Assembly (NCBI GenBank): GCA_013425325.1
Contig: JACCLL010000091.1
Location: forward strand, 1-35,451
DNA: 35,451 nt
From: Microcaldota archaeon
GTDB lineage: Archaea; Micrarchaeota; Micrarchaeia; Norongarragalinales; UBA8480
Direction: 5' to 3'
Under the pieces are notes generated by a model, which saw only the letters and a program-made list of their open reading frames with translations, had not been told where the DNA came from and ran no database searches. The translations under genes were made by a program, and so were the position numbers. Positions 2,797 through 33,773 of this stretch are shown piece by piece; within the stretch, counting starts at the first letter, position 1; the number at the start of each line of letters is the position of its first letter.

Positions 2797-2907
2797 TGCG
2801 GCCACCGGGATTTTCGCGCAAGCGAAAAGCCGCAAAACTTTTTGCTTGAAATCGAACCCGGGTCTCGAGCTTGGGAAGCTCACGTGCTACCACTGTACCA
2901 TGGCCGC
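2797..2907 (-). tRNA. tRNA-Gly (anticodon CCC) interrupted by a T-loop intron; CCA not encoded
   Basis: Minus strand: GCGGCCA acceptor / TGGCCGC, anticodon arm TGAGC-TTCCCAA-GCTCG, variable AGAC, T-stem CCGGG/CCCGG. The T-loop becomes TTCGATT after removal of 40 nt. Confidence 0.9.
2811..2850 (-). other. Predicted 40-nt non-canonical tRNA intron in the T-loop (between tRNA positions 59 and 60)
   Basis: Exon TTCG pairs with intron CGAA (4-bp helix), 3' bulge AAT, 5' bulge ATT(T), intron stem CAAGC/GCTTG; cutting AT^T and AA^T restores TTCGATT. Confidence 0.8.
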
Positions 2908-2957: not shown

Positions 2958-3833
2958 TTGAAAGTCAGGAAAGCAGTTGTTCTCGCAGCCGGCTTCGGCA
3001 CCCGCTTCCTTCCCGCGACGAAGGCGCAGCCGAAGGAAATGCTGCCAATAATCGACAAGCCAATCATCCAGTACGTGGTGGAAGAAGTCCTAGAAGCGGG
3101 CATTCGCGACATAATTATAGTGACCGGGAGAGGAAAGCACAATATCGAAAACCACTTCGACCGCAGCCCCGACTTGGAACTGCACCTGCTGAAAAAAGAC
3201 GACAAGGAAAAACTCGCGCAAGTCGAGAAAATATCGAAAATGGCCGACGTTTTCTACGTGAGGCAAAAAGAGCAGAAGGGGTTGCCTGACGCAATTTACT
3301 GCGCCCGTGACCACATCAACGGAGAACCTTTCGCGGTATTGTACGGCGACGACTTTTTCACTGGAAAAAATCCACTGAAAGAACTGCTCGACGTTTTCAA
3401 CAAATACCAGTCATCAGTTGTCGGCGTAACCGAAGTCCCGCGGAAAGAAGTTCACCGCTACGGAGTAATTAAAGGCAGGGAAATCGAGCCAAGCGTCTAC
3501 GAAATGGATGACGTCGTCGAAAAACCGCGCGTGGAAGACGCGCCTTCCAATCTAGTGAATAATGGGCGCTTGGTTTTAACGCCGGAATACTTTGAAGCAA
3601 TCGAGCAAACGCCTTTAGTCAAGGGAGAGAAATGGTGGCCCGATGCAGCGCGAATTCTCATGAAGAAACAAAAGTTTTACGCCAAGCGAATGGACGCCAA
3701 GTGGCATGCCGTCGGCGACAAAACCAACTACGTAAAAACAACCATCGAGTTTGCGTTAAAGCGCGACGACATGAAAAACGAAATCAAAGCCTATTTGCAG
3801 GAGCTGGAGAAAAAGAATTTCGTCCTGGATTAG
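2958..3833 (+). CDS. galU: UTP--glucose-1-phosphate uridylyltransferase (GalU-like nucleotidyltransferase)
   Basis: KAVVLAAGFGTRFLPATKAQPKEMLPIIDKPIIQYVVEE, LYGDDFF, VGVTEVPRKEVHRYGVI; 291 aa; TTG start. Confidence 0.93.
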   Translation: MKVRKAVVLAAGFGTRFLPATKAQPKEMLPIIDKPIIQYVVEEVLEAGIRDIIIVTGRGKHNIENHFDRSPDLELHLLKKDDKEKLAQVEKISKMADVFYVRQKEQKGLPDAIYCARDHINGEPFAVLYGDDFFTGKNPLKELLDVFNKYQSSVVGVTEVPRKEVHRYGVIKGREIEPSVYEMDDVVEKPRVEDAPSNLVNNGRLVLTPEYFEAIEQTPLVKGEKWWPDAARILMKKQKFYAKRMDAKWHAVGDKTNYVKTTIEFALKRDDMKNEIKAYLQELEKKNFVLD

Positions 3834-28134: not shown

Positions 28135-30936
28135 ATGGCTTTAGAGTTTCTGGCGTTCCTAGTAGTACTTGCCCTGACGGCTATTCCGGGAATAGTGCTT
28201 TCTTTCGCTTTATTGAGCAAAACGGCGTTGAACAAATTCGAGAAAACCGTAATCGGATTCGTGATCGGAGTTCTCGCCGCGCCGACTCTTGCTTTCCTTG
28301 AATTCGTCTTACTGGGTTTGAAGCTCAGCACGCCGCTTGTGTTCGTCAATTACTTCATCGTGCTCGCGTTGGCGCTTGGACTGGCTTTCAGGCAAAAGCA
28401 GTTGCAGAAAGTCGCTGGCCTTCCAAAGCAGTTGGCTGAAAAAAGGGATTGGCTTGCGTGGACGCGCGCAAACTGGGCTCAAATACTCTTACTGATCTTT
28501 ATAGTCGCCGGTTTTTACGTTCGGGTAGGTTCTTGGTCAACTAACTTCTTCGAGTTCGACCCATACTACTATACTTTCATGAGCGAGCAGATAATCCGGT
28601 TCGGCGCTGCTCCGCAAGTCGGAGAATTTGCGTACTACCCTGCTTTCGAGCACATAATACGAATTCATCCTATTGTTTCTTACATGGCTGCTTCTTGGTA
28701 CTCGGTTTACGCGTCTATTGCGTTGCCGGCTTTCTCGAAAGACGCGTTGCTCATGGCGCAACAGCTTTACCCCGCCATTGTCGGCGCGTTGCTCGCTTTC
28801 TTCGGATACCTGCTCGTAAAACCTTACTACGGCAAACCTGCGGGTCTTGTAACCGCGGCGTTTCTCGCTTTTTCGCCGCAGTTGATCAAAAAGTTTGCCG
28901 CTGGCGTTGCCGAACTGCAGCCAATGACCGTATTCCTTGCGTTGGCGTTATTCGCGGTTTTCGCAATTGCTTCCGAGAACAAGAGCAAGCGGTTTACTGC
29001 TTTGGTGGCAGCAATTAGTTTCTGGCTCGTGTTGTCGGGACAGCAGTACATTTGGCCCGCAATGGTAATGGGCGCATTCATCTTGATTCAGTCGGTCGTC
29101 GACTACTGGAAAGACTCGCTGGATTTTGATAAGGTCCTCTTGAATCTTGCGGTTGCAGTGCCTGCTTTCATCGCGTTTGCATTGCTTTTATTGTATAAGG
29201 GAGACTCGCTTGCGGCAATGACTTTCGGTTTGTGGTTCTTGCTTGGCGCCGCCCTGCTTTCCGCCGTCCTGCACTTTTCTTCAAAAATACGGTTGCCGAT
29301 TGACGAAAAACTTCGCAAGCCGTTAGTAATAGGCGGTATCGTACTAGTCGCCGTTTTGTTCTTGGCGTTTTCGACGTTCGGCGGCCAGTTTACGAGCTTG
29401 GTCAGTTCGTTGACCGGCTTGGCCGGCCGCGGCTCGCCGTTGGGCAACACCATTGCGGAAGAAAACCCTGCAACCGAAGCGATTTTCGTAGGTTCTTACG
29501 GAATTCTCAGCAATCCGCCGTTAATGCTCTTGGCAACGGCGTTGATAATCAGTTTCTACGCCGCCCTGCGCTTATTCGAAGCGGGAAAAATAAAGTACGC
29601 GGCGGCGGTAGTAGTCGTCGCAGTGCTGTTTACCGTTTTCAACTCGGTTTTTGACGGCTTGATTGCGGCCGTCGTGGGGTCGCAGCCGGCTTTGCAGCCA
29701 TTGATTGACTTCGTTACAACCGGAGACGTGTTCTGGTACTTGCTGGTTACCCTGTTTTCAGTGCTGTTGCTGCAGTTGCACGACCAGAAACAAACGAGGT
29801 TACTGCTGCTGTACGCATTAATTATTTTCCCTGTTGCTTACATTGGTTTGAGCAAGGTCAAGTACGGCCTGCACGTCGGCCTCGTGCTCGCAATAGTTGT
29901 TGCAATACTATTGGGCGAGTTCAACCGTATTCTGGCGGCATTGAACGAGCGCTTAAAGTTCATGTCTGCTTCGTCGGTCAAGTGGACTTCGTTGGCAATA
30001 ATTATTCTGATCGGAGGCGGCTTGGCTGCGGCTCAAATAACGGGCATTCCGGGCAAGTCGCCTGGTGTCGCGGACTCTATCAATGAATTGAATTCCTCCA
30101 AGATTTCGAGCGATTGGTTGCTTGCAATGAGTTGGTTGCGGAACAACACCAACATGTACGACTCGTCTATTCAGGCGCAGTGCAACGCCAAGTTCGGTTG
30201 GGACTGCGGCGTCATCAGTTGGTGGGACTACGGCCATTGGACCAACTTCCTCGGCGAAACCAAATCCGTTCTAACGCCTAACAACGAGTACTCCAATTAC
30301 GACCAGGAAGTGGCCCATGGTTTCGTCGACGGCAACACGCAGGACTTTATTGCTTCAATGAAGGCGCACCACGCGACACACGTGCTTGTCGACGCGCAGT
30401 TGATTCAAAAGTGGGGTGCGTTGGTTTACTTGAGCGGAACTTGCACGCCTGAAATGTCGTCGTTGTGTCCGCCTGCTTACATTACTGACTGGAAGGAAGG
30501 CGCTGGAAAAAGCAGGTACGAGGCAGAGCATTACTTCGAGTACCTGCAGTTGAACGGCCAGTGCCCGACTGCTGTTCCAATGCCTGCTTTGCAAAGCAGT
30601 TTCGGAATGACCTACTGCGCCGGCCAAAACGAGTTGACGCTTCTCGGCAGGGGCGGGGAACTGGTTTCGGGCTACCGCCGGCCTTTCGTAGTAGTGCAGG
30701 ACTTGTCGGCGACTCAGGAAATAGACGAAAACACGTCTTACTTATTCCCGTACTCGCAAAACACTTTCGTCAACCCCAATCCTGACTTGTCGCAGGCGGG
30801 CTTGAACAACACTTTAATCAAATCGGTTTTCGTGCGCTTGTACTTGTTCGAAAACCTGCCTGGATTCAAGCTCGCTTACCGCTCGCCGCACGGTGAAGTC
30901 AAGATTTTCGAGATAGACCCCGCGTTGCTGAAGTGA
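28135..30936 (+). CDS. aglB: Dolichyl-phosphooligosaccharide--protein glycotransferase (STT3/AglB)
   Basis: 933 aa, multi-TM; FFEFDPYYYTF, NTIAEENPAT, VISWWDYGHWTNFLGETKSVLTPNNE (WWDYG). Confidence 0.95.
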   Translation: MALEFLAFLVVLALTAIPGIVLSFALLSKTALNKFEKTVIGFVIGVLAAPTLAFLEFVLLGLKLSTPLVFVNYFIVLALALGLAFRQKQLQKVAGLPKQLAEKRDWLAWTRANWAQILLLIFIVAGFYVRVGSWSTNFFEFDPYYYTFMSEQIIRFGAAPQVGEFAYYPAFEHIIRIHPIVSYMAASWYSVYASIALPAFSKDALLMAQQLYPAIVGALLAFFGYLLVKPYYGKPAGLVTAAFLAFSPQLIKKFAAGVAELQPMTVFLALALFAVFAIASENKSKRFTALVAAISFWLVLSGQQYIWPAMVMGAFILIQSVVDYWKDSLDFDKVLLNLAVAVPAFIAFALLLLYKGDSLAAMTFGLWFLLGAALLSAVLHFSSKIRLPIDEKLRKPLVIGGIVLVAVLFLAFSTFGGQFTSLVSSLTGLAGRGSPLGNTIAEENPATEAIFVGSYGILSNPPLMLLATALIISFYAALRLFEAGKIKYAAAVVVVAVLFTVFNSVFDGLIAAVVGSQPALQPLIDFVTTGDVFWYLLVTLFSVLLLQLHDQKQTRLLLLYALIIFPVAYIGLSKVKYGLHVGLVLAIVVAILLGEFNRILAALNERLKFMSASSVKWTSLAIIILIGGGLAAAQITGIPGKSPGVADSINELNSSKISSDWLLAMSWLRNNTNMYDSSIQAQCNAKFGWDCGVISWWDYGHWTNFLGETKSVLTPNNEYSNYDQEVAHGFVDGNTQDFIASMKAHHATHVLVDAQLIQKWGALVYLSGTCTPEMSSLCPPAYITDWKEGAGKSRYEAEHYFEYLQLNGQCPTAVPMPALQSSFGMTYCAGQNELTLLGRGGELVSGYRRPFVVVQDLSATQEIDENTSYLFPYSQNTFVNPNPDLSQAGLNNTLIKSVFVRLYLFENLPGFKLAYRSPHGEVKIFEIDPALLK

Positions 30937-32226: not shown

Positions 32227-33003
32227 ATGCCTGGCAAAAGGTTGGAGGGAGGAAACGGCGCTTTGAAACTCAGGTTCGGCAGCATCGTCAGCTTCAGTAA
32301 AACCGAGTACCCCGGCAAGGCAGCTGCAGTCGTGCTGACTGCGGGCTGTCCGTGGAAGTGCGGCTACTGCGACGCAGGCCCGTTGGTCAACGCAAGCGGC
32401 TACGCCGAGGAAGAAACCAGTTTTTTCGTCGAGTTCTTGCGCAAGAACAAGGAGCACATTGGGTCGGTTGTTTTCACTGGCGGCGAGCCGTGCATGCAAG
32501 GCAACGCGCTCGTCGAGTTGTGCAAGCAGCTTTCGCAAGAAGGCTTCAAGATAAAGATCGACACGTGCGGCTACTACCCTGATTCGCTGCGTGACTTGCT
32601 GCCGTACGTGAACTACGTTGCAATGGATTTGAAGACCAGGTTCAACGCGGAGGAGTACGCGAAAATAGCTGGGTTCAAGAGCGCTCCGAGAACGTTGTTG
32701 AGCCAAGTGCTGCGCAGCCTCGCCTTCCTTGAAAAAGCAAGGGTTCTCAAGGAATTTCGGACAACCGTGATTCCGGGCGTAAACGACTTTCCGGACGTCA
32801 TTCTTGACATTACTGAGCAAGTGAAGTTCGCCGACGTTTACGCGCTGCAGCAGTTCAAGCCCAAGGAAGGATTGCTGGACAAGGCTTTCGAATCAATTGA
32901 AATGCCTTCAAAAGACAAGTTGTTGAAACTCGCGGCAGTTGCGAAGCACAACGTGTCGAAGGTAGTAGTGCGCGCGGACGGAACCGAGGTTGAAGTGCGT
33001 TGA
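32227..33003 (+). CDS. Radical SAM protein, anaerobic ribonucleotide reductase-activating-like (NrdG family)
   Basis: VVLTAGCPWKCGYCDAGP (CxxxCxxC), VFTGGEPCMQ, KIDTCGYYPDSL, YVAMDLKTR. Confidence 0.88.
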   Translation: MPGKRLEGGNGALKLRFGSIVSFSKTEYPGKAAAVVLTAGCPWKCGYCDAGPLVNASGYAEEETSFFVEFLRKNKEHIGSVVFTGGEPCMQGNALVELCKQLSQEGFKIKIDTCGYYPDSLRDLLPYVNYVAMDLKTRFNAEEYAKIAGFKSAPRTLLSQVLRSLAFLEKARVLKEFRTTVIPGVNDFPDVILDITEQVKFADVYALQQFKPKEGLLDKAFESIEMPSKDKLLKLAAVAKHNVSKVVVRADGTEVEVR

Positions 33004-33773
33004 TTTCTTTCTCGGAAGCAAAGCAGGTGGTCGACCACGCGCTTTCGGCTGGAAAAACAGCTTTACTGGTAGGCAACTGCGCAGTCAAGTACGAGGGAAG
33101 GGCGGCAAGCAAGTTAAGCGAAGGAGACCGGTTGTTGGTAGTAAAGAGCGACGGAACTTTCCTGGTTCACCAGAGCAAGAAAATGGCTGCAATCAACTAC
33201 CAGGGTCCTGGCGCAGTCGTTTCAGCTGCAGTTGAACAACGCGACGGAGCGGAGGAACTGGTGGTGACTGCGCGGAGAAAGCTGCCTACCGGCGCGCTCG
33301 AGCGGATCGAAGTGCACTTTCATTCGCTGCAGTTTGCGCAAGCGTTTTTGCTGAAGGACGACGCGGAACTCAAGGTCTTCGGGTCGGAGCGGCAGTTGAG
33401 CGACTTGCTGATGGACGACTTGAATTTGATCGAACCCGGGTTGAGGCCGTTGCAGAAGGAAAGCGACGTGCGCAAGGGAACGATCGACATTCTGGCCGAA
33501 GACTTCCGGAAACGGTTGGTGGTAATCGAGGTAAAGCGCCGCACGGCCGGGTTGGACGCGGTTACTCAGCTCGCGAGGTACGTGGACGAGTTGAGCAAGC
33601 GCAAAGACCGGCAGACGCGCGGAATCCTGGTTGCTCCAGAGGTTACGCCGAACGCGTTGAAAATGCTTGAGCGAGGGGGACTGGAGTTCTTCAAGCTCGA
33701 CTATGAAGTAAGCAATCCGTCGGCGAAAATCAAGGGCCTTGAGAAAAAACAGAGGGAATTAAGCGAGTTCTAG
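33000..33773 (+). CDS. nucS: Endonuclease NucS / EndoMS
   Basis: LVVKSDGTFLVHQSKKMAAINYQGPGA, NLIEPGLRPLQKE, KGTIDILAEDFRKRLVVIEVKRRTAGLDAVTQLARYVDEL. Confidence 0.95.
   Translation: MISFSEAKQVVDHALSAGKTALLVGNCAVKYEGRAASKLSEGDRLLVVKSDGTFLVHQSKKMAAINYQGPGAVVSAAVEQRDGAEELVVTARRKLPTGALERIEVHFHSLQFAQAFLLKDDAELKVFGSERQLSDLLMDDLNLIEPGLRPLQKESDVRKGTIDILAEDFRKRLVVIEVKRRTAGLDAVTQLARYVDELSKRKDRQTRGILVAPEVTPNALKMLERGGLEFFKLDYEVSNPSAKIKGLEKKQRELSEF

Follow-up and report, generated by a model that had tools for sequence, protein, structure and literature searches.

The minus strand of a 35,451-nt stretch of micrarchaeal DNA (the window) very probably carries a functional tRNA-Gly(CCC) gene interrupted in the T-loop by a spliceable intron, one copy of a small family found across tRNAs of the genus. 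Gene anatomy, fold, covariation, endonuclease, homologous copies and orthologues with filled or empty sites are all read directly from the sequence; cleavage and ligation, direction of gain and route of spread are what we infer from it.

Table 1. Features of the tRNA-Gly(CCC) locus, its neighbour gene, and loci of a second intron family
Feature	Position	Strand	Evidence or remark
tRNA-Gly(CCC) gene, unspliced, 111 nt	2797..2907	-	5' end at 2907, A73 at 2797
5' exon, nt 1-59 (57 nt), ending CCGGG TTCGAT	2851..2907	-	BHB rule; empty orthologous loops TTCGATT
Intron, 40 nt, position 59/60	2811..2850	-	homologous to T-loop introns of tRNA-Lys(TTT) and tRNA-Arg(CCG), same genome
3' exon, nt 60-73 (T CCCGG TGGCCGC A)	2797..2810	-	sequence; ARAGORN on spliced form
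Anticodon CCC	2873..2875	-	sequence; ARAGORN on spliced form
Central BHB helix, exon strand TTCG (nt 54-57)	2853..2856	-	MFE fold; covariation of nt 57 and intron base
Central BHB helix, intron strand CGAA	2813..2816	-	MFE fold; C56 faced by G in all 35 introns found in the class
Inner intron helix, 5' strand CAAGC	2844..2848	-	MFE fold
Inner intron helix, 3' strand GCTTG	2819..2823	-	MFE fold
Nucleotidyltransferase (galU-like), neighbour gene	2958..3833	+	also beside tRNA-Gly(CCC) in congener G001 (L178)
Second intron family	L257-L272, L239, L243, L252, L121, L133, L140		genomes G001, G005, G057, G144 and others

All parts of the cloverleaf are present on the minus strand from 2907 to 2797. 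The acceptor stem is GCGGCCA/TGGCCGC, followed by A73, and the strands of the T-stem, CCGGG (2861-2857) and CCCGG (2809-2805), are separated by 47 nt, 7 being the normal spacing; the tRNA-Gly(CCC) cloverleaf of the original prediction, including the distance between the T-stem strands, is thus borne out. ARAGORN analysis of the spliced form finds the acceptor, anticodon and T-stems intact, and one mismatch in the D-stem. The MFE fold consists of the T-stem, a 4-bp TTCG/CGAA helix, the CAAGC/GCTTG helix and a terminal hairpin. The bulges are AAT on the 3' side and ATTT opposite CG (4 nt vs 2) on the 5' side, a geometry identical to that proposed earlier by eye. The 5' bulge of the modelled structure is relaxed, and the tRNA thus lacks a strict bulge-helix-bulge (BHB) motif. 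The unspliced tRNA folds at -47.1 kcal/mol (z = -3.2), none of 200 shuffled sequences being equally stable; the T-arm and intron folded alone give a z of -2.6.

The expectation that standard finders would miss the gene proved correct for ARAGORN and Rfam. ARAGORN calls zero tRNAs, and Rfam at gathering score returns zero matches, in the whole window; in permissive mode the locus reaches 19.4 bits, the cut-off being 29. Intron boundaries were set by the rule that a BHB is cut between the second and the third base of each bulge. Removal of the resulting 40 nt at 59/60 leaves TTCGATT as the T-loop of the predicted spliced product, and ARAGORN, which does not call the unspliced form, calls this one as tRNA-Gly(ccc); fold and product agree with the BHB intron predicted at this position. 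Four features by which BHB introns are recognized are found here, namely a 4-bp exon-intron helix between bulges of about 3 nt (relaxed on the 5' side), a canonical tRNA upon removal, covariation, and an endonuclease in the genome.

The splice motif was monitored throughout the class with a pattern describing Gly/Glu-type T-arms holding 22-52 extra bases. In 25 of 301 genomes, belonging to 21 of 126 genera, the pattern identified a total of 35 T-loop introns, and it had no match when reversed as a control; as it requires a CCGGG T-stem, these figures are undercounts, and families with no matches may still have introns. On the intron side, the base facing C56 is a G in all 35. Opposite R57 it is C in 9 of the 13 introns facing G57, and U in 21 of the 22 facing A57, a covariation for which the Fisher test (p = 4e-5) is too optimistic, since the sequences of the class are related. 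The same contrast is visible inside single genomes too, such as G001 and G012.

The distribution of the intron within the genus was analyzed in two congeneric genomes, the one containing the window (G000) and G001, by a covariance model of the T-arm plus intron, here called R1. R1 matches 3 sequences in G000 and 8 in G001 (E from 5e-19 to 8e-10), all located in T-loops, in 11 different tRNA genes; elsewhere in the order only weaker matches were obtained. Hosts are Gly(CCC), Lys(TTT) (T-loop of 49 nt) and Arg(CCG) (48 nt) in G000, and Gly-TCC, Gly-CCC, Glu-TTC, Glu-CTC, Asn, Asp, Arg-TCT and Lys-TTT in G001. The sequence of the T-stem tracks the host tRNA, and the exons are intact in the other tRNAs holding R1 too. 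Introns are 59-93% identical to each other, the mean for shuffled sequences being 48%. No copy of the R1 intron tail was found outside tRNA T-loops in either genome at 0-1 mismatch. In A57 tRNAs, CGAA is kept in 3 of 4 copies and makes an A-C mismatch; the copy in G001 Gly-TCC, also an A57 host, has a compensated U-A pair. Judging from the sequences, C is mostly kept in A57 hosts, as if the introns had been copied from G57 hosts. The presence of one intron family at the same site of different tRNAs had not been foreseen by the original prediction.

T-loop introns reside in at least 17 tRNA genes in G001, versus 3 in G000. Orthologous pairs filled in G001 number 16, and in 13 of these the G000 partner has a plain 7-nt loop; in 11 of the 13 pairs the loop predicted for G001 upon splicing at 59/60 is the same as the plain G000 loop. 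Sequence comparisons indicate that intron relationships do not track host genes in the two genomes. The Lys intron of G000 shares 91% identity with the introns of G001 Glu-TTC and Asn, and about 76% with that of its G001 orthologue; for the tRNA-Gly(CCC) intron in the window the values are 86% against the Lys and Arg introns of G000, and 67% against that of the G001 orthologue. In an outgroup comparison covering Gly(CCC) only, several relatives in the family and the order are intronless, and their loops, TTCGATT, correspond to the predicted spliced product, which suggests a gain of the Gly(CCC) intron in the genus.

The gene may be spliced as proposed and the two species still differ because G000 has lost introns, not because they have spread in G001, the window copy being an old survivor. 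Presence and absence alone give no direction, and introns could plausibly be lost when a gene recombines with a DNA copy of its spliced tRNA. We consider this unlikely: one intron copied in different tRNAs implies copying at some time, the Lys and Gly(CCC) introns of G000 are closer to non-orthologous introns than to their orthologues, introns in A57 hosts feature a C suiting G57 donors, and Gly(CCC) is intronless in the relatives mentioned.

A second tRNA-intron family features a conserved core, UCCCUUUUCUUU..AAAGAAAAGGUC, after which comes CCCCAAAAGAAA. The five bases preceding the core pair with the five following it, with 4-5 of 5 pairs formed in 19/19 sequences, and the flanks covary (AUCCA/UGGAU, AUACA/UGUAU, CACCA/UGGUG, GUCCA/UGGAC, UGAAA/UUUCA). 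Exact copies number 11 in G057 and 6 in G144, mostly in tRNA T-loops; relatives reside in anticodon-loop introns of G001 as well. Rfam at gathering score, as uninformative for tRNA-intron loci as it is for the window, gave no match to this family in the eight loci scanned, and neither R1 nor the second family was found in viral contigs. In tRNA-Arg(CCG), both congeners have T-loop introns belonging to different families (L210, L252), which suggests independent insertion, or replacement, at one site.

The assembly containing the window spans 863 kb in 105 contigs and is 88.6% complete. A second intact Gly(CCC) gene, the finding that would have spoken for a decayed copy, was sought in it with a permissive tRNA model and with an anticodon-arm pattern allowing 3 mismatches, and none was found. 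The tRNA-Gly(CCC) genes of G000 and G001 are orthologous by context, since both adjoin the galU-like gene; the relative orientation of the two genes is opposite in the two genomes. In G001 a further intron, about 100 nt long, interrupts the anticodon loop of tRNA-Gly(CCC). A search for SHMT neighbours in named genomes recovered no tRNA-Gly(CCC) locus from named relatives. Many surface polysaccharide and N-glycosylation genes map in the window at 2958-30936, among them genes for a nucleotidyltransferase, a UDP-GlcNAc 2-epimerase and a flippase-like protein, with an STT3-like oligosaccharyltransferase at 28135-30936. A single ORF of 511 aa at 5-1540 encodes a ThyX-type protein containing two stretches of Thy1, and a gene for NucS endonuclease lies at 33000-33773.

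One splicing endonuclease is encoded in G000, by a single ORF of 385 aa with two recognizable PF01974 units. Residues 11-385 align to residues 13-387 of ARMAN-2 EndA (4fz2; 422.6 bits). The catalytic residues Y236, H251 and K282 and the ASL lysine K161, named for ARMAN-2 EndA in PMC6379350, are identical in the two proteins (ARMAN-2 numbering). By sequence, the enzyme is of the epsilon-2 type, with one chain (~390 aa expected) spanning all three units, and the Tyr/His/Lys triad and the ASL lysine conserved. Epsilon-2 EndA is described as having broad substrate specificity (PMC6379350, PMC12397907), in line with the broad-specificity endonuclease anticipated from the relaxed bulge. Relatives of this type are found in 280 of the 301 genomes of the class, mostly at full length, Candidatus Micrarchaeota archaeon CG1_02_47_40 being among the carriers; in nine other named archaea the match to G000 EndA extends only across the catalytic region. 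The endonuclease match in CG1_02_47_40 (L033) has the coordinates and score of that in class member G118, which ties the class to Micrarchaeota. No match to PF01139, the RNA ligase RtcB, was obtained in the 88.6%-complete G000 assembly; this may reflect an assembly gap, or the use of another ligase.

In the mechanism we propose, the T-stem of the precursor would extend into a 4-bp helix formed by exon nt 54-57 (TTCG) and the intron 3' end (CGAA), with two flanking bulges. The epsilon-2 endonuclease would cleave on either side of the intron, after nt 59 and before nt 60, and ligation of the exons would then give a normal 7-nt T-loop. The T-loop would be a permissive site, likely because TTCR, which the exon contributes to the BHB helix, hardly differs from one tRNA to another, and an intron ending in YGAAAA would form a splice motif in any of them. 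Copying may have occurred by recombination between tRNA genes, by reverse splicing, or through delivery by integrating elements (PMC3293823). More broadly, the T-loop could serve mobile BHB introns of Micrarchaeota as a universal landing site, through which several unrelated families, one with a conserved structured core and no Rfam match, would have spread; in the window's genus this would have happened in the time since two species diverged. Introns would need no adaptation to a new host because TTCR is common to nearly all tRNAs. We hold this wider reading tentatively, doubting it slightly more than we favor it.

Introns may alternatively be kept since they destroy virus or plasmid attachment sites in the 3' part of tRNA genes, a hypothesis of Randau and Soll discussed in the cited portion of PMC3293823. 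Integrases commonly target tRNA gene ends (PMC3293823), a T-loop intron splits the 3' part, and introns recur at one T-loop site. This would account for the retention of introns and not for the origin of the copies, and as an explanation of the data we regard it as decidedly unlikely.

Two further readings are highly improbable. The insert prolongs the T-stem into a stable folded structure, and may be retained after maturation, giving a tRNA with a giant T-arm. Contact between T-loop and D-loop makes the tRNA elbow, and would disappear in such a molecule; moreover, the 3' end of the intron can pair with the invariant T-loop and shows covariation at nt 57, which is the signature of a splice motif, and in the sister genome 13 orthologues carry plain loops of 7 nt, 11 of which equal the predicted product. 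Equally improbable is a pseudogene broken by chance insertion: ARAGORN and Rfam miss the gene and one D-stem pair is mismatched, but no other Gly(CCC) gene was found in the 88.6%-complete assembly, acceptor, anticodon and T-stems are undamaged, the G001 orthologue beside the galU-like gene retains both gene and intron, and the same intron resides in other tRNAs with intact exons. Pseudogene, retained T-arm and chance insertion were set aside on these grounds.

Neither the 59/60 site nor the transposition of tRNA introns is new, both being on record for other archaea. Position 59/60 is listed among the non-canonical sites of archaeal tRNA introns (Sugahara et al. 2008, in the portion of the review PMC4090602 cited here). 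The introns reported there share with the present one the insertion point, the relaxed BHB, and often the presence of more introns per gene; the cases in the same portion are mainly from Crenarchaeota and Nanoarchaeota, whereas the host here belongs to a class of Micrarchaeota, and its congener has many T-loop introns. Transposition was described in Thermoproteales, where very similar introns reside in different isotypes (Fujishima 2010, as related in the cited parts of PMC4090602 and PMC4033280). As in those accounts, R1 is homologous across isotypes, and sites are filled or empty at orthologous tRNAs of close species; unlike there, phylum and endonuclease type are others, and R1 was found in T-loops only. 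The EndA of G000 resembles ARMAN-2 epsilon-2 EndA (Fujishima 2011, Hirata 2012; PMC6379350, PMC12397907) in its end-to-end alignment and catalytic and ASL residues, but differs in having a diverged sequence and in that its action on tRNA-Gly(CCC) is predicted. Many non-canonical introns, several per gene, are also a trait of tRNA genes in Atabeyarchaeia and Freyarchaeia (PMC11291895); those are Asgard archaea, in contrast, and the cited section describes no homologous families at one site.

The present gene is a further case of this known type; of added interest are the spread at one site in a lineage of Micrarchaeota endowed with an epsilon-2 enzyme, along with a second, structured family at the same site in relatives. 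As the gene goes unseen by ARAGORN, and by Rfam at cut-off, essential tRNAs can be recorded as missing from genomes of the class. The congener pair, with its 13 filled/empty sites, makes the way in which archaeal tRNA introns spread directly testable, and provides a natural set of candidate T-loop substrates for the epsilon-2 endonuclease.
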